A DNA stretch of 64,000 nt, taken from the NCBI GenBank assembly GCA_003388505.1, contig QQVO01000016.1, positions 62,001 to 126,000 on the forward strand, read 5' to 3'. The notes under the pieces are model-generated. The model searched no databases and was not told where the DNA came from. It saw only the letters and a list, made by a program, of their open reading frames with translations. The DNA comes from Planctomycetota bacterium (GTDB taxonomy: Bacteria > Planctomycetota > Planctomycetia > Planctomycetales > Planctomycetaceae). Positions 48,597 to 61,235 of this stretch are shown here, in pieces (position 1 is the stretch's first letter; the number at the start of each line of letters is the position of its first letter). Made by a program: the position numbers and the translations under genes.

Positions 48597-51053
48597 ATGT
48601 CCCGGAACGGGATCAATCACGTCGGCGTCCATCTCCTTTCGCTGGCGTTCATCCACGCACTCGTCGCCAACACGTCAGCAGCCGGGTTGGTTGTGCAGCC
48701 GGCGTCGATTCAACTGAGCGCTGACGCGCCCCGCCAGCGGATCATCGTCTCCACCGATCGCGAAGGTCGCCGCGTCGACCTCACCCGCGATGCCTCCTTC
48801 GCATCGGCGAATCCCGACGTCGCCACCATCGATCCCGGGGGACTGATCCACGCGGTCAGCGCCGGGGAAACAATGGTCACCGTCTCCGTTGGAGAAGAGC
48901 AGGCGCAGGTCGCAGTCGCCGTCGGCTCGATGGAACCGTTGCCGATCGATTTCCAGCGCGACGTGCAGCCGCTCTTCACCCGGCTCGCCTGCAACGCCGG
49001 CGCCTGCCACGGCAAACAGCGGGGGCAGAATGGGTTTCAACTCTCGCTGCTCGGATTCGATTCGGACTTCGACCATGCAGCTCTCGTCAAAGAGGCCCGC
49101 GGCCGTCGCATCTCGTTCTCAAAGCCGGAGGACAGCCTGCTGCTCCGAAAACCCGCCGGCCTTGCGCCGCACGGCGGCGGCGTCCGCATGCCGGTCGGCT
49201 CCGAGTACTACGAGATGCTGCATAAATGGATCGAAGCCGGCGCTCCCCGCAATGCACCCGACGCTCCCCAACTGGTCTCCGTCTCTGTGCTTCCCAACGA
49301 GCGGATCATGTACGCCGATGAATTGCAGCAGTTGATCGTGACCGCCGCCTACAGCGACGGTTCCACCCGCGACGTCACGTCACTCGCCACCTACCAGTCC
49401 AACGAGAGCGCCACGGCGAGCGTCGATGACAACGGCCTCATCACAGCTGGCACGGTCGTCGGTGAAGCGGCCGTCATGGCCCGCTACATGGACAAGTTTG
49501 CCCTCTGCCGCGTCTCGCTCCCGCTCAGCGGCGACGTCCCCGATGAACTCTACGCACAACTGCCGCGGCGAAACTTCATCGACGACCGCGTCTGGGACAC
49601 CCTCCAGCGGCTCAAACTCACGCCGTCCGAACCGGCCCCCGACCACAAGTTCCTCCGCCGGGCCTACATCGACATCCTCGGACGCGTACCGACCGTTGAG
49701 GAAGCAAGAACCTTTCTGGACGACACATCCGCCGACAAGCGGGACCGCCTCGTCGATACACTCCTCGACCGGCCGGAATACGCCGAACACTGGGCCAACA
49801 AATGGGCCGATCTCCTGCGGCCCAATCCCTATCGCGTCGGCATCAAAGCCACGCTCAACTACGACGCCTGGATTCGCGACAGCTTCCGCACCAACAAACC
49901 GTATGATCAGTTCGTGAGAGAACTCATCACCGCCAGCGGCAGCACCTTCCGCGACGGCAACGCCACTCTCTTCCGCGACCGCCGCAGCCCCGACGAAATC
50001 GCCACCATCGCCAGCCAGTTGTTCCTCGGCATCCGGCTGGAGTGCGCCAAATGCCATCACCACCCCTTCGAGGTCTACGGCCAGGAAGACTTCTACAGCT
50101 TCGCCGCCTACTTCGCCGAAGTCGGTCGCAAAGGGACCGGTCTCTCACCCCCCATTTCCGGCTCCGAAGAGTTCGTCTTCGCCGCCGGCAAAGGCTCGGT
50201 GACGCATCCTCTCACCGGCGAGACGATGCAGCCGGCCCCGCTGTTCGGCGAAGCGCCCGATGTGAGCGAGACGTCCGATCCACGCGCAGCGCTCGCCGCG
50301 TGGATCACTTCACCTGAGAATCACTACTTCGCAAAGACCATGGCCAACCGCGTCTGGGCCGACCTGATGGGCGTGGGGCTCGTCGAACCGGTTGACGACC
50401 TCCGCGCCACCAACCCCCCGACCAACGGTCCCCTGCTCGACGCCCTCGCCGCCGATTTCCGGGACCACGGCTACGACATCAAACACCTGATCCGCACGAT
50501 TGCAACATCCTACGTCTACGGGCTCAGTTCGCTCCCCAGTGAGCGCAACGTCGTCGACACGCGCAACTATTCCCGGCACTACCGTCAGCGGCTCCGGGCC
50601 GAGGTTCTGCTCGATTCCGTCTGTCAGATCACCGGTGTCCCTGAGTCCTTCGCCGCCATGCCGCCCGACGCCTCCGCCAAGCAGATCTGGACGCATCGCG
50701 TCTCCTCGCTCTTTCTCGACGCCTTCGGCCGTCCCGATCCCAATCAGGACCCGCCCTGCGAGCGGGTCAGCGACCCGACGGTCGTTCAGGTGCTGCACCT
50801 CATGAATTCCGAGGGGGTCTACAACAAGGTCACCAGCGATTCCGGGTCCGCCGCTCAATGGGCCGCAAGCGACCTCACACCCGCAGAAATCGTCAAAAAC
50901 ATCTATCTCTCTGTCTACAGCCGACTTCCGGACGAAGAGGAGTTGAACATCGGAGTCGGTTTATACGAAACTGAAGAAGGAAACCGCCGCCAGGCGACCG
51001 AAGACCTCCTCTGGGCCCTCCTCAACACCCCCGAGTTCGTCTTCAAAGACTGA
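48597..51053 (+). CDS. Big_2 domain/DUF1549/DUF1553 protein with CX4CH motif
   Basis: Protein of 818 residues with a signal peptide. Two bacterial Ig-like (Big_2) domains (DLTRDASFASANPDVATIDPG near residue 61 and the similar DVTSLATYQSN near 260) flank a heme-type segment with C132-X4-C137-H138. DUF1549 follows with CAKCHHHPFEVYGQEDFYSFAAYF (C483), then DUF1553. The CX4CH form differs from the CXXCH of the other paralogs. It starts divergently from the minus-strand array and is followed by a DUF1501 gene after 71 bp. The 432-bp gap upstream holds a degenerate copy of the 29597 palindrome and no gene. Confidence 0.9.
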   Translation: MSRNGINHVGVHLLSLAFIHALVANTSAAGLVVQPASIQLSADAPRQRIIVSTDREGRRVDLTRDASFASANPDVATIDPGGLIHAVSAGETMVTVSVGEEQAQVAVAVGSMEPLPIDFQRDVQPLFTRLACNAGACHGKQRGQNGFQLSLLGFDSDFDHAALVKEARGRRISFSKPEDSLLLRKPAGLAPHGGGVRMPVGSEYYEMLHKWIEAGAPRNAPDAPQLVSVSVLPNERIMYADELQQLIVTAAYSDGSTRDVTSLATYQSNESATASVDDNGLITAGTVVGEAAVMARYMDKFALCRVSLPLSGDVPDELYAQLPRRNFIDDRVWDTLQRLKLTPSEPAPDHKFLRRAYIDILGRVPTVEEARTFLDDTSADKRDRLVDTLLDRPEYAEHWANKWADLLRPNPYRVGIKATLNYDAWIRDSFRTNKPYDQFVRELITASGSTFRDGNATLFRDRRSPDEIATIASQLFLGIRLECAKCHHHPFEVYGQEDFYSFAAYFAEVGRKGTGLSPPISGSEEFVFAAGKGSVTHPLTGETMQPAPLFGEAPDVSETSDPRAALAAWITSPENHYFAKTMANRVWADLMGVGLVEPVDDLRATNPPTNGPLLDALAADFRDHGYDIKHLIRTIATSYVYGLSSLPSERNVVDTRNYSRHYRQRLRAEVLLDSVCQITGVPESFAAMPPDASAKQIWTHRVSSLFLDAFGRPDPNQDPPCERVSDPTVVQVLHLMNSEGVYNKVTSDSGSAAQWAASDLTPAEIVKNIYLSVYSRLPDEEELNIGVGLYETEEGNRRQATEDLLWALLNTPEFVFKD

Positions 51054-51074
51054 CCAGGCCAGCCGCCGCCCCAA

Positions 51075-51103
51075 GGCGAGCCGCCCGGCGTCAGCCGGCG
51101 GAT
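51075..51103. repeat. REP element, copy 4
   Basis: GGCGAGCCGCCCGGCGTCAG followed by CCGGCGGAT, in the 71-bp gap between the two genes of the pair. Confidence 0.65.
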
Positions 51104-51124
51104 ACCCCCGCAAACTCAAGACCC

Positions 51125-52456
51125 ATGCAAACCACCTCACACAACTGCGAAGCCCTCACCCGACGCAACTGTCTCCAGCTTGGTCTGGGAGGAGCATTCG
51201 GCGCCGGTCTGGTTGACCTGCTCCGCCTGCGGAGCGCGGCCGCCGATTCGTCCGCGCTCAACGTCGAGGCAAAGAGCTGCATCCTCATTTGGCAGGACGG
51301 CGGCCCCACCCACTACGAGACCTTCGATCCCAAACCAGCCGCGCCGGCCGAAGTCCGCGGCGAGTTCCGTGCCATCGACACCGCTGTCCCGGGCGTCCGC
51401 TTCTCCGAGCACATGCGCGAACTGGCGTCCCTTGCCGACCGCTTCTCCGTCGTTCGCTCCATCCGCCACAACCAGGGGAACCACGGCGCCGGCAACCACT
51501 ACATGATGACCGGCGCACCACCGAGAATCCCGGTCGGCTGCGGCGCGTTCGTCAGCTTTCACCCCAGCCTCGGATCAGTCACCGCTCGCGAACGCGGCCA
51601 CCAGCATGGTCTGCCCGCCTACTTCTCGATTCCCCGCATGTCTCGCTCCGGCGGCCCCAACTTCCTCGGCGCGCAGTACGCCCCCTTTGTCGTTCCGGAC
51701 AATCCGAACAAACAGGATTTCCGCGTCCGCGATGTCGCGTTGCCCCGCGGGCTCGAAGAACCCCGTTTCGAATCTCGCAAGGACCTCCGCGCTCTCGTCG
51801 ATCGCCTGGAACGCATCCCCGAACCGGCCGCCTCCGACCCGGTCCTCTCGCTCGACGACTACTACACCCAGAGCTACGACCTCATCAGTTCGCCGCAGGC
51901 GCAACGGGCGTTTGACATCCACAGCGAACCGGATGAAGTCCGCGACGCCTTCGGACGCAACTCCTTCGGCCAGCGGGCGCTCCTCGCCCGCCGGCTTGTC
52001 GAAGCCGGCGTCCCCTTCATCACCCTCTATGAAGGCGGCTGGGACCATCACCGCAACATCTTCCCCACACTCCGCAAACGGCTTCCGACCTTCGAGGCGA
52101 CCGTCGCCACGCTCCTCCGAGATCTCGACGAGCGCGGCCTGCTCGACACCACGCTGGTCGTCATGCTCGGCGAATTCGGTCGCACCCCCAAGGTCAACAG
52201 CCGCGCCGGACGCGATCACTGGTCCAACGCCATGTCGGTCCTGATGGCCGGTGCAGGCTGCCCCGGCGGACTCGTCATCGGGGCCACCGATCGAGCCGGT
52301 TACTCCGCAGTCGAACGCGTTCTCTCGCCGGAAAACTTCGCCTCCACGATCTACCGCAAGCTCGGCATCGATCCCGACAAGGTCTACTACACGCCCCAGG
52401 GCCGGCCGACGCACCTGGTCAGCGATCCCACACCGATCGCCGAACTGTTTGCTTGA
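51125..52456 (+). CDS. DUF1501 Tat-exported protein (short form)
   Basis: Protein of 443 residues, shorter than its paralogs at the C-terminus. TRRNCLQLGLGGAFGAGLV is a twin-arginine signal. Key segments are CILIWQDGGPTHYETFDPKP, IRHNQGNHGAGNHYMMTG, TLYEGGWDHHRNIF, VVMLGEFGRTPKVN and GRDHWSNAMSVLMAGAG. It lacks the RLTDVHG tail of the other copies and is the specialised partner of the Big_2 type protein before it. Confidence 0.9.
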   Translation: MQTTSHNCEALTRRNCLQLGLGGAFGAGLVDLLRLRSAAADSSALNVEAKSCILIWQDGGPTHYETFDPKPAAPAEVRGEFRAIDTAVPGVRFSEHMRELASLADRFSVVRSIRHNQGNHGAGNHYMMTGAPPRIPVGCGAFVSFHPSLGSVTARERGHQHGLPAYFSIPRMSRSGGPNFLGAQYAPFVVPDNPNKQDFRVRDVALPRGLEEPRFESRKDLRALVDRLERIPEPAASDPVLSLDDYYTQSYDLISSPQAQRAFDIHSEPDEVRDAFGRNSFGQRALLARRLVEAGVPFITLYEGGWDHHRNIFPTLRKRLPTFEATVATLLRDLDERGLLDTTLVVMLGEFGRTPKVNSRAGRDHWSNAMSVLMAGAGCPGGLVIGATDRAGYSAVERVLSPENFASTIYRKLGIDPDKVYYTPQGRPTHLVSDPTPIAELFA

Positions 52457-52564
52457 CGACGCGTTGCCGGTACAACACGCCTGTTCCGGCGAGTCGTAGA
52501 ACTCCCGGACTTGCCGCTCTGCGTCACTCATCCCGATCCCGTCCGCTGAGATCGCGCTATTCCC

Positions 52565-53437
52565 ATGCCTGCTGAACTGGCCGGTTATCGCGAATGGAGC
52601 GGCAAGACCCGCTCGCCGTGGCGGGCGAGCTGGTCGATCGTCCGCACCGGCGTCCTGATGATCCTCCGCAGGTGGGTGTTCTGGTTGCTCATCGGTCTCG
52701 GACTGCTCAACTTCCTGCTCAACTTCGCCCTGATCTACCTCAAGGCCACGCTCACCATCCAGAACGAAGCGGTCGGTCAGTTCCTCGATGCCTACAAGGT
52801 CACAGGAACAGGCGAAGCCTACGCCGACTTCATGGAGGGACAGGCGACCATTACCGCCCTCCTGCTCGCCTTTGCGGGGGCCAACCTGGTCGGCAGCGAT
52901 TATCGCCAGGGAGGAATGATTTACTACCTCTCCCGGCGGATCGAGCGACGGCACTACATCGTCGGCAAACTGATGAGCGTGGGGGCGGTGGTGACCATGA
53001 TCGCCACGCTTCCGACGATCGCGCTGTTCATCGAATACGGCGTCCTCAGCAGTTCGCTCGATTACTTCTTCGAAAACGGTCGCATCCTTGTGGGCATCCT
53101 GGGGTATGGACTCGTGCTGGCAGTCGTCCAGAGCCTCCTGCTCTTCGCCATCGCATCCTGGGTGCACCGGGCTGTGCCGCTCGTCATGTGCTGGCTCGGC
53201 GTATTCGTGCTCCTCAGACTGCTGGCCGACACGGCGCGAGCCATCTCGGACGACCGCCGCTGGCTGCTCCTCGGCATCTGGGAAAACATGGACCGCGTCG
53301 GCAGTTGGTGCTTCGGCGCCGGCAATCCGGACAAAACCCCCAGTGTGGGACTCTGCCTCACCGTGCTCGTCGGACTCTGCATCATTTGTCTCATCGTGAT
53401 TGTCCGTCGCGTCCGGGCGATTGAGGTGGTCACATGA
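52565..53437 (+). CDS. ABC-2 type transporter permease
   Basis: Protein of 290 residues with about six hydrophobic helices (WVFWLLIGLGLLNFLLNFALI, the ATITALLLAFAGANLVG region, VVTMIATLPTIALFI, LVGILGYGLVLAVV, LVMCWLGVFVLLRL, LCLTVLVGLCIICLIVIV). The cytoplasmic segment YRQGGMIYYLSRRIERRHYIVGK is typical of ABC-2 permeases. Its stop overlaps the next ATG by four bases, so it is translationally coupled to the ATPase. Substrate is unknown. Confidence 0.85.
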   Translation: MPAELAGYREWSGKTRSPWRASWSIVRTGVLMILRRWVFWLLIGLGLLNFLLNFALIYLKATLTIQNEAVGQFLDAYKVTGTGEAYADFMEGQATITALLLAFAGANLVGSDYRQGGMIYYLSRRIERRHYIVGKLMSVGAVVTMIATLPTIALFIEYGVLSSSLDYFFENGRILVGILGYGLVLAVVQSLLLFAIASWVHRAVPLVMCWLGVFVLLRLLADTARAISDDRRWLLLGIWENMDRVGSWCFGAGNPDKTPSVGLCLTVLVGLCIICLIVIVRRVRAIEVVT

Positions 53438-54408
53438 GCGCCCCAGAGTCGCCGAGAACTGCCTCGCCCGCCACAGCCGGTGCGGTGGCCGAACTGCGCA
53501 GCGTCACCAAGTGGTACGGCCCAGTCATCGGCGTCAATGACCTGGATCTCACGATCGGCCCCGGGATCACCGGGCTGCTCGGCCCGAACGGCGCCGGGAA
53601 AACAACGCTCATCAAGCTGCTCGCCGGACTGCTGCATCCGAGCCTCGGAAAGGTCACAGTCAGCGGCCGTTCGGCGGCTTCGTCGGCCGCCAAGGAGCAC
53701 ATCGGTTACTGTCCCGACGTCGATGCATTCTACGAGGAAATGTCGGGCAGGCGGTTCGTCCGCACGATGGCCCGCCTGCACGGCATGTCGAAAAGCGAAG
53801 CCAAAGAACGCGCCGAGATTGCACTGGCCGAAGTCGGAATGACGGACCGCGCCGATCGCCGGCTGCGCGGCTATTCAAAAGGCATGCGGCAGCGCATCAA
53901 GCTCGCGCAGGCGCTCGTCCACGACCCGGCCATGCTCATCGTCGATGAACCGCTCAACGGAGTCGACCCCGTCGGCCGCCGGGAACTCATGGAACTCTTC
54001 CGAGGTTTTCGCGATCGAGGCAAAGCCGTGCTCGTCTCGAGTCACATCCTCCACGAAATGGACGCCCTGGCCGAGCGCGTCATCTTCATGGGGCGCGGAC
54101 GAATCCTGGCGAGCGGGACGCTCGCGGAGATTCGCGAGATGCTCGACGAGCACCCTCTGCACGTCCGCCTGCGGTCGAGTCAGGCACGGGAACTGGCGGC
54201 CCAACTGATACGCTGGGAAGACGTCAAAGGCATCGAACTCCGCGACGAAGAAGAGTTTTCGCTGGAAGTGCGCAGACCGGACGCGTTTTTTCAGCGATTG
54301 GGAGACTTCGTCGTAGCCGAGTCGATCGACGTCTCCGCCCTGGAAACCACCGATGCGTCCGCCGAGGCGGTCTTCGACTACATCATGTCATCCGCCGCCA
54401 GAGCTTAA
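53434..54408 (+). CDS. ABC transporter ATP-binding protein
   Basis: Protein of 324 residues with Walker A GPNGAGKTT, signature RGYSKGMRQRIKLAQAL, Walker B MLIVDEP and the D-loop NGVDP, and a switch His in VLVSSHILHEMD. The C-terminal 80 residues are an ABC-2 accessory domain. It is encoded between two permease genes and should energise a heteromeric exporter with both. The GTG or other starts upstream were not needed; the ATG overlaps the preceding stop. Confidence 0.92.
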   Translation: MSAPESPRTASPATAGAVAELRSVTKWYGPVIGVNDLDLTIGPGITGLLGPNGAGKTTLIKLLAGLLHPSLGKVTVSGRSAASSAAKEHIGYCPDVDAFYEEMSGRRFVRTMARLHGMSKSEAKERAEIALAEVGMTDRADRRLRGYSKGMRQRIKLAQALVHDPAMLIVDEPLNGVDPVGRRELMELFRGFRDRGKAVLVSSHILHEMDALAERVIFMGRGRILASGTLAEIREMLDEHPLHVRLRSSQARELAAQLIRWEDVKGIELRDEEEFSLEVRRPDAFFQRLGDFVVAESIDVSALETTDASAEAVFDYIMSSAARA

Positions 54409-54506
54409 CGTCACAGGCCCGCCTGCCACGCATTCGAGCGCATTTCATTTGACCGTAACGGTTCTGGCGGCGCGAGAGCCGGGCAGAATAGAGCGAAACG
54501 GATCGT

Positions 54507-55319
54507 ATGTCGTCGGAAAAGACCGCCAGTGAAAGACCCAGCGCCCTGCAGCCCTCAGCGCTCTTTTCGGCATGCGTGCATCTGCTGAGACTGACCCTCA
54601 GCCGGCAGTTCTGGTCGCGCCAGACCGTCGTCGGATTGGCGCTCTCCCTGTTATGCGTGATGATCACGTTCGCCTGGACGCTCCACCGGGATCCGTCCAG
54701 CAAGCGTTTAATCGAGATGATGCTCGTGCCGGCGTTCCTGGCGTTTCTGATGCCCGTCTTCGCGATCTGCTACGGCGCCTCGGCCGTCGGTGGCGACCGC
54801 GAAGACCGCACGCTGATCTACCTGCTGATCACGTCGATCCCGCGCCCGCTCATCTATTTGACCAAGTTCATCGCCGCGTGGCTCCTGGCCACCGGCTGGT
54901 CGGTCGGAGTGTTGTGGGTGCTGTGCACCGTCGCCGGGCAACCGGGGAACGAGGCGTTCGACGTCTTCCTGCTGCCGACCGTCTTCGGATGCACGGCGTA
55001 CGTCAGCCTGTTTCTGCTGGTCGGCGCTGCCTTTCGTCACGGGACGATCATTTCCCTCGCCTACTGGTTCTTTCTCGAAGTCCTGTTCGGAAACATGCCG
55101 GGGATCGTCAAACGCATCTCGGTCGCGTTCCATACCCGTTGCATGGTGTACGAGTCAGGTTCTGCACTCGAACTCGGCCCCGCCGGACGGGTCGCCCGCG
55201 AGATGTTCCTGCCGGTCTCGGGCGAAACGGCAAGAACGGTCATCCTGATCTCCTCCGCCATCCTGCTGGCCGCCGGAATGCTGATTTTCAGTCGACGAGA
55301 ATACCGGGATTTGAGCTGA
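54507..55319 (+). CDS. ABC-2 type transporter permease
   Basis: Protein of 270 residues with hydrophobic helices including VVGLALSLLCVMITFAWTL, MLVPAFLAFLMPVFAICYGA, FIAAWLLATGWSVGVLWVL, VFGCTAYVSLFLLVGAAF and VILISSAILLAAGMLIF. The GGDREDRTLIYLLITSIPRPL segment is ABC-2-like. It follows the ATPase after a 98-bp gap. Its stop codon is followed immediately by the R2 copy 3 terminal repeat, so the element landed at the 3' end of the operon. Confidence 0.85.
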   Translation: MSSEKTASERPSALQPSALFSACVHLLRLTLSRQFWSRQTVVGLALSLLCVMITFAWTLHRDPSSKRLIEMMLVPAFLAFLMPVFAICYGASAVGGDREDRTLIYLLITSIPRPLIYLTKFIAAWLLATGWSVGVLWVLCTVAGQPGNEAFDVFLLPTVFGCTAYVSLFLLVGAAFRHGTIISLAYWFFLEVLFGNMPGIVKRISVAFHTRCMVYESGSALELGPAGRVAREMFLPVSGETARTVILISSAILLAAGMLIFSRREYRDLS

Positions 55320-55479
55320 CCCGGATTGCTCGTAGAGCACGCTGCCAGCGTGCGTCACCGTTGACGAGACACAGGGGTGCAATCCGTTCCAAAAGCGCGA
55401 CGCACTGGGAAACTTTTCGATAACCTGTCGTTTGGCAACCACTTATGTTGAACCGGACGCTCGTCATGAATAATCCGGG
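55320..55479. mobile_element. R2 160-bp MITE, copy 3
   Basis: Also exactly 160 bp but the most diverged. Left end CCCGGATTGCTC, right end GAATAATCCGGG; starts on the base after the TGA stop of the ABC permease. It opens the 809-bp gene-free region 55320-56128. Confidence 0.82.
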
Positions 55480-55636
55480 CAAATCTCCGCGGTCTTCAAA
55501 CCGCGCGGCCGGATGCGTGATGCGTAATGATGCACCACGTAGCACAATTGCACAGCCCCTCACGTCACCTGGCTCACGTGTAACGTAACCAACTTGAAAC
55601 AAACAGGTTACAGAATTCCAAAGTTTCTCTTGAGAA

Positions 55637-55651
55637 TGGCACGATCGTTGC
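55637..55651 (+). promoter_or_regulatory. Sigma-54 (RpoN) promoter
   Basis: TGGCACGATCGTTGC matches the consensus TGGCACG-N4-TTGC at every position, with GG at -24 and GC at -12. Upstream, GTAACC (55585-55590) and GGTTAC (55606-55611) form an inverted pair that could be an activator site. Transcription should start near 55663. Confidence 0.75.
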
Positions 55652-55662
55652 CAATAGCGTGG

Positions 55663-55748
55663 TGTGCCATGAGGCAAGCGTTGGCCCGCACTTGTCGCCT
55701 TGGCATTCAGCGTTTCGAGTGCTTAGCACTCGAAACGCGTTTTTTTTT
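55663..55748 (+). ncRNA. Candidate sigma-54-dependent small RNA
   Basis: Predicted transcript of about 86 nt between a consensus sigma-54 promoter and an intrinsic terminator. The 5' half folds as a hairpin: UGCCA (55665-55669) with UGGCA (55701-55705), AGGC (55672-55675) with GCCU (55697-55700) and AAG (55676-55678) with CUU (55691-55693). The second hairpin is the terminator. The only plus-strand reading frame in it runs through the terminator T-tract and is not credible. No known RNA family was recognised. Confidence 0.6.
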
Positions 55749-55749
55749 T
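55710..55749 (+). terminator. Intrinsic terminator
   Basis: Perfect 14-bp stem GCGTTTCGAGTGCT / AGCACTCGAAACGC (55710-55738) with a one-base central nucleotide, so the top few pairs open as the loop, followed by G and ten T residues. This is by far the strongest terminator in the window, on the + strand. Confidence 0.92.
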
Positions 55750-56128
55750 GCGCTGACTTCTCCCGCCGGCCTCCTGCTTCCCGTCGGCCACTCCGCAAGA
55801 TCGTCCCGGCTCGCGATCCATTCACACGGCGGCATCTCGCGTCTCAGAATCGGACGGACGGACGACGCACCCCCACTCCTTCCAGCCGATTCTCGCTGCT
55901 CTTCCATTCGAGCGCCGACTGGCATCCACCTCGGCCCGCGCATATCATGAACAGCGGTTGGTCGCCGGACTTCAGCGGATTCCCTGTTCACGCGCGATCG
56001 TTGATCAGACCTGTGAAGCGGCGTACGGGCGGCATCCGCTTGCGAACCAACGGGCCACTAAGATCTAAGATCGACGGGCGGCGGCCGGTTCTGTGAATCG
56101 GTCGCCCGGCAACTCAAAATAGACCACC

Positions 56129-57169
56129 ATGCTCCTGTTCGTCATTCGAGTCGTCTACATCCTGGTCTGCACGGGCGCAGCCGCGACATACACGCTGGGA
56201 CAGGGCACCGGCGCCCCGAAAGTGGTGACCGACCATCCCGTCACCTCATTCCTCGTCATGTTGGCGATCGGATTGTCGGCGCTGCTGATCGACGTCCTCA
56301 TCCCCCGCAAACGGGTCGAAGTGGCGTCTTCGATCTACATCGGCCTGCTGATCGGCGTCCTGCTCAGTTACCTCTTCAACCTCGCGCTGCGCCCCCTCTT
56401 CGCCATGCACGAACTGTTCGGCAGCGAAGGCGCCGCGTTTCAGGGCGGAGCCACGCTGCTGACGCTGATTATCCTGCCCTATCTCTGTATCACCTTCCTG
56501 CTCCAGACGAGGGACGATTTCCGCTTCGTCATCCCCTACGTCGAGTTCTCACGCGAATTGAAGGCGGGACGCCCCCTCATCCTCGACAGCAGCGCCTTGA
56601 TCGACGGCCGCGTCGCAGACGTGATCGACACCCACATGATCGACGGGCAACTGCTCGTACCGCAGTTCATCCTGCAGGAGGTGCAGGACATCGCCGACAG
56701 CCACGACAAAGTCCGCCGCAGTCGCGGACGCCGCGGGCTCGATGTCCTCAAACGCATCCAGTCCGACCCGAAAGTCGAAGTTCGAATCGTCGAATCAGAC
56801 GCCGCCAACGGCAGATCGGTCGACCAGCGGCTGATTGAAATCTCCAAGCAGACCAACGGCCGCCTGGTCACCAACGACCTCAACCTCAACAAGCTCGCCG
56901 GCGTCCAGGGAGTTCCGGTCGTCAACCTGAACGACGTCTCCAACGCTCTCAAACCGAAGTTCATCCCCGGCGAGCACGTCCGCATCCGCCTCATCAAGGA
57001 AGGCGAATCCCCCGGTCAGGGCGTCGGCTACCTGGACGACGGCACGATGGTCGTCGTCGAATCAGGCAGCACTGAGGTCGGTAACGAAGTCGACACCGTC
57101 GTCACCAGCGTCCTGCAGAACAGCGCCGGACGCATGCTCTTCTGCCGTTTGGCGCTGGAAGAGAAATGA
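56129..57169 (+). CDS. PIN-TRAM membrane protein (YacL-like)
   Basis: Protein of 346 residues with four N-terminal membrane helices (up to about residue 125), a PIN domain starting [18 protein letters not shown] with acidic residues, [20 protein letters not shown] and [13 protein letters not shown], and a C-terminal TRAM domain from about residue 278 ([25 protein letters not shown]). It resembles Bacillus YacL, a membrane PIN protein that probably binds or cleaves RNA. Its stop overlaps the terpene cyclase ATG by four bases, an unexpected operon partner. Confidence 0.88.
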
Positions 57170-59094
57170 CGCTCCTCCGCGAGCGGGATCGACTAGCAGA
57201 CTGCTACCGGTCCGCCAGGCAGGCCTTGCTCGACGAATTGACGCCCGACGGCCATTGGGAAGGAGAACTCTCGACCTCCGCGCTCTCCACCGCCACCGCC
57301 GTCATGGCGCTCGAATTGATGCGCCGCGAGGGACGCGTCGAATCAGTCAGCGGCCGCTCCACCCAGGAACTGATCACCGGCGGCATCGACTGGCTCGCAG
57401 CCCACCAGAACAACGACGGCGGCTGGGGCGACACCGTCAAAAGCCTCAGCAACATCTCGACGACGTTTCTCGCCCGCGCCGTCTTCCGCGCTACGGAATC
57501 GGAGGATCGATACCGCTCCACCGTCGACGCAGCCGTCGGCTACATCGATCGCGCCGGCGGCGTTCCGGCCGTCATCACCCGCTACGGCAAAGACCGCACG
57601 TTCTCGATCCCGATCCTCACGCACTGCGCCCTGGCCGGACTCGTGGAGTGGCGCGAAATCCCGCGTCTCCCGTTTGAACTCGCCTGCGTCCCCGCCCGGT
57701 TCTACAAAACCGTGCGATTGCCGGTCGTCAGTTACGCGCTCCCCGCGCTGATCGCGATCGGCCAGGTCCGCCATCATCACGGCAAACCCTGGAATCCGGT
57801 CACGCGGTCGCTGCGCGCTGTGGCACAGCGACCGAGCCTGAACGTTCTCGAGCGGATTCAGCCCGAGAACGGCGGATTCCTCGAAGCCACTCCCCTGACC
57901 AGCTTCGTGACCATGAGCCTCGCCGGCATGGGACTCACAGAGCACCCGGTCGCCCGGAACGGACTGCAATTCATCGTCGACTCCGTGCGCGAAGACGGAA
58001 GTTGGCCGATCGACACCAATCTGGCGACCTGGGTCACCACGCTCGCCGTCAACGCCCTGCAGGGAGACCTGCCCGAGGACCGCAAAAAACCGATCCTCCG
58101 CTGGCTCCTCGACCAGCAATACAAAACGGTCCATCCCTACACCAACGCCGCCCCCGGCGGCTGGGCCTGGACCGACCTCCCCGGCGGCGTCCCGGACGCC
58201 GACGACACACCGGGAGCAATCCTGGCGCTGCTCAACCTGGCGAGCGGGGGGCGTCAGCCCCCCGATGCTTTCGAGGCACATTCCGCCACGACCGAGGGGC
58301 TGACGCCCCCCACCCGCCAGTCGATCCTCGATTCGGAATTGTCGACTGCGGCGAGCGACGCTGTTCTCGCGGGCGTTCACTGGCTGTGCGATCTCCAAAA
58401 CCGCGACGGAGGCTTTCCGACGTTTTGCAGGGGGTGGGGCAAACTTCCATTCGACCGGAGTTCGGCTGACATAACTGCGCATGCACTGCGAGCCCTTCTG
58501 AGGCTGGATGCTCCTCGACGCGCGTATCTCGCGGCAAACCCTGGCGGGAAAATGCGGCTCCACCGTAGCCAAAAGCGCCTGACCCGTTCAGTTGGCTGGG
58601 GGTTTCGATTTCTCAGCGGATCCCAGAATCCGGACGGTTCCTGGCTCCCGCTCTGGTTCGGCAATCAGCACGCGGCGGGCGAAGAAAACCCCACCTACGG
58701 GACGGCGAAAGTGCTCGCTGCCTATCGCGAAGCGGGATGCCTCGATTCTCCAGAGGCCCAACGGGGTTTACATTGGCTGCGCACCGCACAAAACGAAGAC
58801 GGAGGCTGGGGCGCGGGCCCCCCAACGCCCTCCAGCGTCGAGGAAACCGCGCTCGCCGTCGAAATCCTTTGCAGCGATCCGCTCAGCGAATCCGCAGCCG
58901 CCCGAGGCTTGACCTGGCTCATGCAACGCTTCGAAGACGGCTCCTGGCGCAACCCCTCCCCAATCGGTTTCTATTTTGCCAGATTATGGTACTTTGAAAA
59001 CCTGTACCCGATGATAATGACCGCGGCAGCGCTCCAGACCGCACACCACCGGTTCGCCGCCCGACCGGAAACAAACAGACCCCAGCCTGATTGA
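57166..59094 (+). CDS. Squalene-hopene cyclase-family terpene cyclase
   Basis: Protein of 642 residues, the normal length. The catalytic acid motif DADDT is at residues 344-348, equivalent to DVDDTA of squalene-hopene cyclase. QW repeats are seen as [32 protein letters not shown] and QNEDGGWG. An in-frame REP element (58239-58266, with its complementary arm to 58311) adds about 22 residues between the catalytic motif and the following helices. It should cyclise squalene or another polyprenyl chain at the membrane. Coupled to the PIN-TRAM gene and 72 bp before the polyprenyl synthase. Confidence 0.9.
58239..58266. repeat. REP element, copy 5, inside the terpene cyclase gene
   Basis: GGCGAGCGGGGGGCGTCAGC then CCCCCGAT, in frame within the cyclase. 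A perfect complementary arm lies at 58296-58311 (GGGGCTGACGCCCCCC against 58246-58261), so the mRNA can fold a 16-bp stem with a 34-nt loop. Confidence 0.75.
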
Positions 59095-59166
59095 CGTTGC
59101 CGCCCGCGCAATCCGCCCGGCGCAGCACGACTCACCGCAGCGACCCCACCCCACGAGGAATCGACG

Positions 59167-61050
59167 TTGGATATCGCCGCCCCCCTCGAGTCGACACCCG
59201 TCTCGTCAAACCCCCCTTCGGCCACCGGTTCCACCTCTCCCACACCGGACCCGGCCGACGACGTGACGCCGAAAAAACGGAAGGGCCGCCGGCGCAGCAC
59301 CAGTCATCTCAAGGCCGTGCCGGAAACGCTGGCGCTGCGCGAACAGATCAGAGCCGCGGCCGAAACACTGGCGGCCCCCCTCGCCACAGGCGAACCGTTC
59401 ACTAAAGATGAACTCGAGCAGATGGCCCGCAAGCTGCTCGCCGAAATGGAGCAACCCGAGAAGTTCCTCGGCTTCACCATGGTCCTGCTGGGCAACTACT
59501 ACTGGAAACGGCAGTTGCTCGCCGTGCCGTTCGAGCGGCGGATGCTGCTCTTGCCCCACTGTCTCAAGCACGCTGAAGGCTGTCCGGCCGACTACGACGA
59601 ATTCGGCCTCGATTGCGAAAAATGCGGCGCCTGCTCAATCGCCGATTACAAAGTCCGCGCCGAGGAACTCGGCTACAAGGTGCTCGTCGCCGAAGGCTCC
59701 CCGATCGTCCTCAAAATCATCGTCGAGGGCTACGTCGATGGAATCGTCGGCGTCGCCTGCTTGAACGTCCTCGAAAAAGCGATCGACAAGGTTCTTCTCG
59801 CCGGCGTGCCCTCCTTCGCCATCCCGCTCCACTCCGGCGACTGCAAAAACACGTCGCTCGACGAGGCCTGGGTCTGGGAGGTGCTGGAGAAGTACGAGCC
59901 GCTCCCCGAACCGCCCACCACCAGTTACGTCCCCGTCATGCGCGCAGCGAACTCGATATTTCGCGACGATTTCGAGCGCTTGCTGCCGCGCACTCGCAGC
60001 GCCTCCCCGGAGAAGGCGGCCAGCCCCCTCGGCAAAACCGAGGATGTTTCCTACGACTGGCTGGCCAACGGCGGAAAACGGTTTCGCCCCTTCATCACGC
60101 TCGCCGCATACGACGCCGTCAAAGGCGAGCGTTCGATCAGAGCGGACGAAGAGCACGGCGACATCGCCGAATTTCCGGACGCCGTCTCCCGCGTCGCCAT
60201 GGCAATCGAGGCCTTTCACAAAGCGTCGCTCGTGCACGACGACATCCAGGACGACGACCTGTTCCGCTACGGCCGCGAAACGCTGCACCGCAGCGAGGGC
60301 ATGGGCCCGGCGATCAACATCGGCGACTATCTGATCGGTCTCGGCTACCGGCTGATTCACGGCTGCGGCGCCGAATTCGGCTCGGAAGCGGCCTGCGACA
60401 TTCTCGACAGCATGTCCACCGCGCACCTCCGCCTCTGCGACGGCCAGGGGGCCGAGATGGCCTGGCAGAACGATCCCGACTGGTCCCTCACGCCCCTCGA
60501 CGCCTTGCAGATCTACGCCCTCAAAACCTCTCCGGCATTCGAAGCAGCACTTTACGCCGGCCTCCGGCTGGCCGGGACGACCGAAAAATACCGTGAAATG
60601 GTCCCCGCGTTCTGCCGGCAACTCGGTGTCGGGTTCCAGATCCTCAACGACCTCAAAGACTGGCGCGGCGACGCAAACAACAAACTCGTCGCCGGGCAGG
60701 ATGCCCTGGCGCTCCGCCCCACCCTGCTGCTCGCCTTCGCGCTCCAGGGGGCCGACGACGCCGGAAAGCGCGAACTCCAGCAGATTTTCGAAAGCGACGA
60801 GAACGACCACAGCCGGCTGACCAGACTGCGCTCGCTCTTTCACGCCAGCGGTGCATTCCAAAAAGCCGACGCACTCGTCGAGAAATCCCGCGAGAGGGCC
60901 GAGGCGCTCGCGGACGACGTCGAACCCGAAGGCCTCCGGCGGCTGATGTACTTCCTCGTCGACACCGTCCTCGCCGAAGAAGAAGAACCACTCCCAACCG
61001 CCGCCGTCCCCTTGGTCACACTGCCAATCGTCGAACCCGTCGGCGCATAG
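59167..61050 (+). CDS. DUF116-polyprenyl synthase fusion
   Basis: Protein of 627 residues from TTG 59167, with a GAGGA ribosome site nearby; no in-frame ATG fits. Residues about 90-265 are DUF116, containing a Cys cluster (CLKHAEGC...CEKCGAC) that could hold iron or zinc. The C-terminal part is a trans-isoprenyl diphosphate synthase: GGKRFRP at 302, first Asp-rich motif DDIQD at 358-362, and a second motif NDLKD at 494-498 in place of DDxxD. It should extend isoprenoid diphosphates, probably feeding the cyclase encoded just upstream. The fusion itself is uncommon. Confidence 0.85.
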
Positions 61051-61235
61051 CGACGCCCCCCCGTACCACGGCCTTCCAAGGCCGTGGCCCCAATCTCGCC
61101 GACGAATGCGGACAGTGGGGAAACTCGTCCCCCAACCAGCGGCGAAGCCGCGAAAGCAGGTAGCCGTGAGCGTAAGCTCATGGAATTCGAGGCGCTACCT
61201 GATAAGACCGAGCCGCGAACGCGGCGCCAGCAAAC

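Follow-up and report, generated by a model that had tools for sequence, protein, structure and literature searches.

A candidate sigma-54-dependent small RNA family in planctomycetes

The locus and the predicted RNA

The window, that is the whole 64-kb stretch of DNA analysed here (G000:C15:62001-126000), carries on its forward strand a sigma-54 promoter followed by a predicted small RNA that ends at an intrinsic terminator. The initial annotation, made from the sequence alone, had read this locus as a candidate sigma-54-dependent stand-alone small RNA lying between an ABC exporter and a terpenoid operon. By Pfam, one neighbour is an ABC-2 exporter and the other is a gene without Pfam match (E up to 1e-5), after which comes a squalene-hopene-cyclase-like gene. 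The features are as follows.

55542-55551, + strand: degenerate enhancer-like dyad GCA-N4-TGC, at the position of the relatives' GCA-N3-TGC; best 17-mer with 9/12 consensus positions
55585-55611, + strand: GTAACC-N15-GGTTAC pair (GTAACC 55585-55590, GGTTAC 55606-55611), absent in 82 other upstream regions
55637-55651, + strand: sigma-54 -24/-12 promoter TGGCACG-N4-TTGC, TGGCACGATCGTTGC, called on sequence and on recurrence in 55/60 members
55663-55749, + strand: predicted small RNA, start inferred 12 nt past the -12 GC, supported by fold and by a match to covariance model R1
55664-55706, + strand: outer stem round the core hairpin, 55664-55669 pairing with 55701-55706 (fold and covariation)
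55673-55696, + strand: core hairpin GGCAAG-C-GU-UGGCCC-GC-A-CUUGUC (fold and alignment), loop GGCCC invariant in 43 aligned members
55710-55749, + strand: intrinsic terminator, 13-bp stem and T10 (fold, and covariation of helix 3)

Most of what the initial annotation had claimed for these features held. A consensus sigma-54 promoter is indeed present as an exact match at 55637-55651, and TGGCACGATCGTTGC is the sole exact TGGCACG-N4-TTGC in the 64 kb. When up to two mismatches are allowed, the pattern occurs 20 times in the window for a shuffle mean of 25, i.e. without excess, and since near-matches are no commoner than in shuffled sequence, the promoter string alone is weak evidence. The terminator, described as a perfect 14-bp stem and ten T, is confirmed for the ten T (55740-55749), while its stem is of 13 bp, with 13 pairs at 55710-55738 closing a 3-nt loop; it has the most pairs among the 18 terminators listed for 50000-61000. 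The predicted RNA of about 86 nt with two hairpins held: 55663-55749 folds into two hairpins at -40 kcal/mol (z = -5.35, 0/200 shuffles equally stable), compensatory changes are found in relatives, and R1 scores 85.8 bits at 55665-55748, the window sequence being among the 7 source sequences of this model. The statement that the RNA contains no believable reading frame held as well, as no frame is conserved across 88 members, and so did the statement that it belongs to no recognised family: no Rfam family reaches threshold at the position of the RNA in the window, and in eight member loci searched at E up to 1 the sole overlap was a sub-threshold ctRNA match to one terminator. The GTAACC/GGTTAC pair proposed as an enhancer site is present as claimed; it is not conserved, the window being alone in having it among 83 upstream regions. 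The GGTTAC half, some 31 nt ahead of the -24 element, falls at the position of a weak CTTRC/TTRC element shared by some relatives.

Conservation and covariation among relatives

Conservation across relatives is the decisive support for the observation. At the DNA level, seven of 59 searched genomes, the window's own among them, contained a match, and GCGTTGGCCCGC is common to six relatives and to a second place in the own genome. R1, built from seven sequences including that of the window, matches 121 of the 170 genomes of the family, in 54 of 58 genera (E up to 1e-3), and R2, a model built from a 60-row alignment, matches 128/170 genomes and 55/58 genera (E up to 1e-4); both counts include the models' own source sequences. 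An R2 match is absent in the other 42 family genomes, some of which are complete. A covariance-model search across relatives had been proposed initially as a check, and it shows promoter, hairpins and terminator kept together in distant relatives.

In a scan of 397 genomes of the class, all matches above 42.1 bits fall inside the window's family, with lower-scoring matches (30-42 bits) in 18 genomes of other families. One place was inspected in each of ten of these 18 genomes. Nine were rejected, being terminator-like matches that lack the conserved loop and show no sigma-54 site within 60 nt upstream; GGCCCGC sits in the terminator stem in one of the outside-family loci (L101), and GGCCC lies elsewhere in the match in two (L098 and L102). 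Membership of the tenth (L095 in G430, 42.1 bits) is undecided, as it has AAGGCCCG in a hairpin loop and a strong terminator, and no sigma-54 site. A search for core plus promoter in named genomes (one per species, 84,980 in all, overlapping the family and class set) returned 66 stretches. Planctomycetes account for 63 of them (62 by title, and L116, titled only 'bacterium', by its R2 score of 86.6 bits), among them Gimesia, Schlesneria, Planctomicrobium, Planctomycetaceae and one Rhodopirellula. These 63 are matched by R2, two being cut off at the locus end; in the remaining three the R2 match extends over 14-16 nt only. The Gimesia hits include two MAG records, L137 and L158. Nine viral contigs with the 17-mer scored at best 25.4 bits with R2 and were not accepted as members.

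Sequence comparison also shows that some genomes contain several copies of the RNA. Tandem arrays of three copies were seen at L053 (5001-5497) and L039 (1501-2007), every copy with its own sigma-54 promoter and the first copy of each array with the variant core GCGTCGGCCCACT. Weak matches in the window's own genome at C37, C4 and C6 (25-26 bits) were left out of the member count. On C37 and C4 (L104 around 4971 and L105 around 5002) there are two long hairpins with GCGTTGGCCCGC as loop on a long stem (GGCAGCCGTCAGCG...), with no promoter or terminator evident by eye. On C6 (L079 around 4996, G000:C6:152474) there is a further copy of the core inside a long hairpin, where the sigma-54-like string TTGGCCCGTGGTTTGC precedes the core copy and forms part of one stem arm.

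The structure is supported by compensatory changes in two alignments. In the structure-fitted alignment 93.9% of cells pair, compared with 77.7% in shuffles and 37-49% when the alignment is slid, and changes on both sides of a pair amount to 253 cells versus 54 in shuffles and are present in 22/24 pairs. Helix 1, the outer stem, has 86.2% of its cells paired, with some compensatory change in 4/4 pairs, and helix 3, the terminator, has changes on both sides in 12/12 pairs. RNAalifold applied to a MAFFT alignment of 43 members, which was not fitted to the structure, found at least one both-sided change in 22/22 pairs; the outer stem is the weakest helix in this unfitted alignment, each of its pairs being broken in 8-13 of the 43 rows. 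The shuffled controls preserve base content and not relatedness. The invariant bases in the 43 aligned members are GGCCC and a C two places further on.

Promoter, upstream sites and gene neighbourhoods

The sigma-54 promoter is present in 55 of 60 members found by the model and in 98 of 12000 shuffles (0.8%), the criterion being GG-N10-GC plus at least four of the seven other consensus bases; in the column counts of the promoter, GG and GC are fixed by the filter. Among the 60 rows there are near-identical sequences and copies from a single array, and an antisense row (L074, minus strand) was dropped. Among the five members below the criterion, three lack GG-N10-GC and two have 3/7 bases. Independent loss of promoter, hairpin pairing or terminator among relatives had been named initially as an observation that would refute the small RNA; it is rare for the promoter, which is not clear in only these five, and for the hairpin or terminator no comparable count of losses is possible, as the search for members relied on these very parts. 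The spacing is also regular: among the 92 members that have GG-N10-GC, the TGG of 88 begins 40-49 nt ahead of the core. As this larger set was partly picked by promoter, we take the promoter fraction from the 60 model-found members. RpoN was found in 38 of 40 genomes, the window's own included (25 of the 40 are from its family), and the two genomes without it are 79% and 88% complete. Overall, the initial reading of a sigma-54-dependent stand-alone small RNA is supported by comparative evidence, in the absence of expression data.

Many relatives share a dyad further upstream. GCA-N3-TGC occurs in 45 of 82 upstream regions for 4.4 expected, and at 85-175 nt upstream of the -24 element it is found in 40/83 regions, compared with 63/1660 genomic and 90/1651 GC-matched windows (3.8-5.5%). 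Upstream regions were thinned at 70% identity over the last 60 nt and include loci chosen by promoter and core, not by dyad; the controls made of real sequence deal with relatedness for the dyad only. Some other spacers also exceed shuffles, by far less (spacers 6 and 18 reach 20, spacers 15 and 17 reach 18). The plurality sequence is TGTT-GCA-N3-TGC-A[GA]CA, with weak inner flanks (T in 22 and A in 16 of 55). Fis-type activators generally bind dyads of this kind. The dyad accompanies 6 of 14 copies linked to panB and 7 of 19 other copies, and so goes with the RNA. A search of 14 genomes for the exact 17-nt enhancer palindrome yielded four sites, at loci without activator signature, core or R2 match (E up to 0.01).

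In 13 genomes of five genera (g1, g5, g12, g16 and g70; genomes G000, G004, G011, G015, G102, G106-G109, G121 and G181-G183) a copy of the RNA lies just upstream of a gene for a sigma-54 activator, on the same strand; G179 is a fourteenth such genome at E = 1.5e-4. These 13 copies end 113-275 nt short of the match to the activator, and clear sigma-54 promoters are present at the five g16 copies. In three proteins or close relatives scanned, the activator has FHA, GAF, Sigma54_activat (AAA+) and Fis-type HTH domains and no receiver-domain match. A search with the activator's N-terminal part returned a match at E up to 1e-20 for 160 of 170 genomes (best matches, for which orthology is unproven). 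Gene adjacency suggests that this FHA-GAF activator may drive the RNA, an inference that has not been shown. The linked copies mostly lack the dyad (0/10 genomes in 11 rows, one genome being counted twice, and 1/5 in a second set), and the dyad may hence be read by a protein other than this activator.

Comparison of the flanks shows that the neighbourhoods are varied. In 40 loci with long flanks, panB lies within 3.5 kb in 17, trxB in 11, an MFS gene in seven and none of these in 22 (names from Pfam on one representative each, trxB being read from Pyr_redox domains). This variation indicates that the RNA is independent of any one neighbour and speaks for action in trans. The first downstream gene is co-oriented in 31/40 loci, within 400 nt in 28 of these, and on the opposite strand in 9/40, and at L068 the RNA is oriented the opposite way relative to panB and trxB.

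Interpretation and rival explanations

Four other explanations can be considered. The RNA could be the 5' leader or attenuator of the downstream gene, its terminator stopping transcription unless a signal permits read-through. The 31 co-oriented first downstream genes, 28 of them within 400 nt, and the 13 copies that end 113-275 nt before the match to the activator gene favour this idea, and a leader role remains possible at some loci. As a general explanation it is unlikely, given that the first downstream gene is on the opposite strand in nine of 40 loci, that downstream genes vary between genera, that the RNA at L068 has a reversed orientation with respect to panB and trxB, and that compensatory changes preserve the terminator. 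We also consider it unlikely that the RNA is a decoy of the CsrB/RsmZ kind, sequestering a regulatory protein such as CsrA instead of pairing with mRNAs. In favour of a decoy, the loop bases are strongly conserved, antisense sites show no clear excess, no Hfq was found in 40 genomes, and csrA is reported among the sigma-54-linked genes of Planctomycetia (PMC12316311). The motif of CsrA is GGA; over the whole RNA with its terminator, GGA is slightly above shuffles (1.55 vs 1.17), but the first 55 nt hold no excess of it (mean 0.60 against 0.98 in shuffles, with at least two GGA in 11/83) and it is absent from the invariant loop. Sequestration of a protein other than CsrA is possible.

The two remaining alternatives find little support. 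That a promoter-like string stands before an unrelated terminator merely by chance would be compatible with the promoter pattern at up to two mismatches being as common in the window as in shuffles; it is very unlikely in view of the covariation and of the co-occurrence of promoter and RNA in 55 of the 60 model-found members. A small protein gene is equally improbable: start codons exist upstream of the core in some frames, but a start before the core with a stop at most 45 nt from it is found in just 20, 22 and 1 of 88 members, depending on the frame (in one frame, a TTG belonging to the core itself is among the 84 starts counted), there is covariation in the stems, and neighbouring core bases are invariant regardless of codon position.

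We therefore favour a stand-alone, Hfq-free, sigma-54-dependent regulatory RNA acting through its invariant GGCCC loop as the likely explanation, with transcription, activator and target unproven. According to this model, the sigma-54 promoter would be opened by an NtrC/LuxO-class activator sitting on upstream sites, and RNA polymerase would yield an RNA of about 85-100 nt ending at the intrinsic terminator, in which the GGCCC loop would be displayed on a hairpin inside the outer stem. Transcription itself, and its drive by sigma-54 and an activator, are inferred. The RNA would then act in trans via the loop and without Hfq, its partner being either target mRNAs, through base pairing, or a protein. 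No Hfq was detected in the 40 genomes of relatives in which RpoN was searched for (5/14 control genomes being positive), and the presence of RpoN in 38 of them with Hfq in none suggests that the RNA should act without this protein. That the loop is the working part is likewise an inference, drawn from its being the invariant part and hence the probable point of contact. The complement of the core occurs at 174 sites in 18 genomes, versus 143 for the reversed pattern (RNA genes included). Without a clear excess, pairing of the whole core is unsupported and no pairing target is indicated, leaving a short seed or a protein partner.

The closest parallel is with the Qrr RNAs of Vibrio, expressed from sigma-54 promoters with LuxO, which are also short terminated RNAs with several copies in some genomes and upstream palindromes. 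As Vibrio qrr1 adjoins luxO (PMC11443567), one planctomycete copy lies beside an activator gene in 13 genomes. The LuxO box TTGCAW3TGCAA, which the recurrent planctomycete dyad resembles, is located 89-120 nt before the start in V. fluvialis (PMC11443567; sites also in PMC10328515). In the 83 planctomycete upstream regions the full box is found exactly in 1, with at most one mismatch in 6 and with at most two in 21, the window copy having a variant only, whereas 1660 control windows gave 0, 0 and 11, respectively. There are several differences: the planctomycete dyad is further out (85-175 nt before the -24 element, about 110-200 nt before the inferred start); the linked activator, unlike LuxO, combines FHA with GAF and gives no receiver-domain match (three proteins); the RNA loci have no Rfam match (eight member loci); and no Hfq was found in 40 genomes, whereas Qrr RNAs need Hfq. 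The wiring is Qrr-like, and homology to Qrr is not shown. CrcZ, GlmY and NrsZ are sigma-54-dependent RNAs of other bacterial groups, and they share with the present RNA a sigma-54 promoter before a stand-alone RNA; the planctomycete RNA showed no resemblance to any Rfam family, although these three were not compared one by one. The Rhodopirellula-1 motif (Weinberg 2010, PMC2864571) is a candidate RNA without an Rfam number in the published table, listed as probably cis-regulatory and ambiguous as RNA, with Planctomycetes and also Proteobacteria among its taxa. The RNA described here has no match above 42.1 bits outside its family in the class scan; the two consensus structures were not compared. 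Our search of open-licence literature found no paper on planctomycete small RNAs by title or abstract and no description of this RNA, and the main text of a survey of the sigma-54 regulon (PMC12316311) contains neither 'small RNA' nor 'sRNA'. We conclude that the predicted small-RNA family is new while its kind, the sigma-54-dependent small RNA, is known, and that its wiring is Qrr-like in an unrelated setting.

A bolder reading, towards which we remain more sceptical than favourable, is that a Qrr-like circuit arose independently in Hfq-less planctomycetes, built from a sigma-54 activator with FHA and GAF domains together with one to four terminated RNA copies whose invariant GGCCC loop would be read by an unknown RNA-binding protein or by a loop-loop contact, making it a family-wide trans-acting regulator without a known chaperone. 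Apart from this reading, a family that keeps its promoter, loop and terminator across 55 of the 58 genera sampled offers an entry point, being open to deletion, tagging and pull-down. It is also relevant to the working of RNA regulators in organisms in which no Hfq was found, and to the question why sigma-54 and LuxO-like sites are paired with short RNAs in two distant phyla.

Three side observations can be added. In G015 the small RNA is followed, after about 120 nt, by a 6S RNA (53.5 bits) at L005 1696-1900 (+). In the window, DUF116 and polyprenyl synthetase domains are encoded within a single reading frame at 59167-61050 (+), and an Acido-Lenti-1 RNA (RF01687) is matched at 61138-61183 (-) with 37.4 bits for a cut-off of 37.
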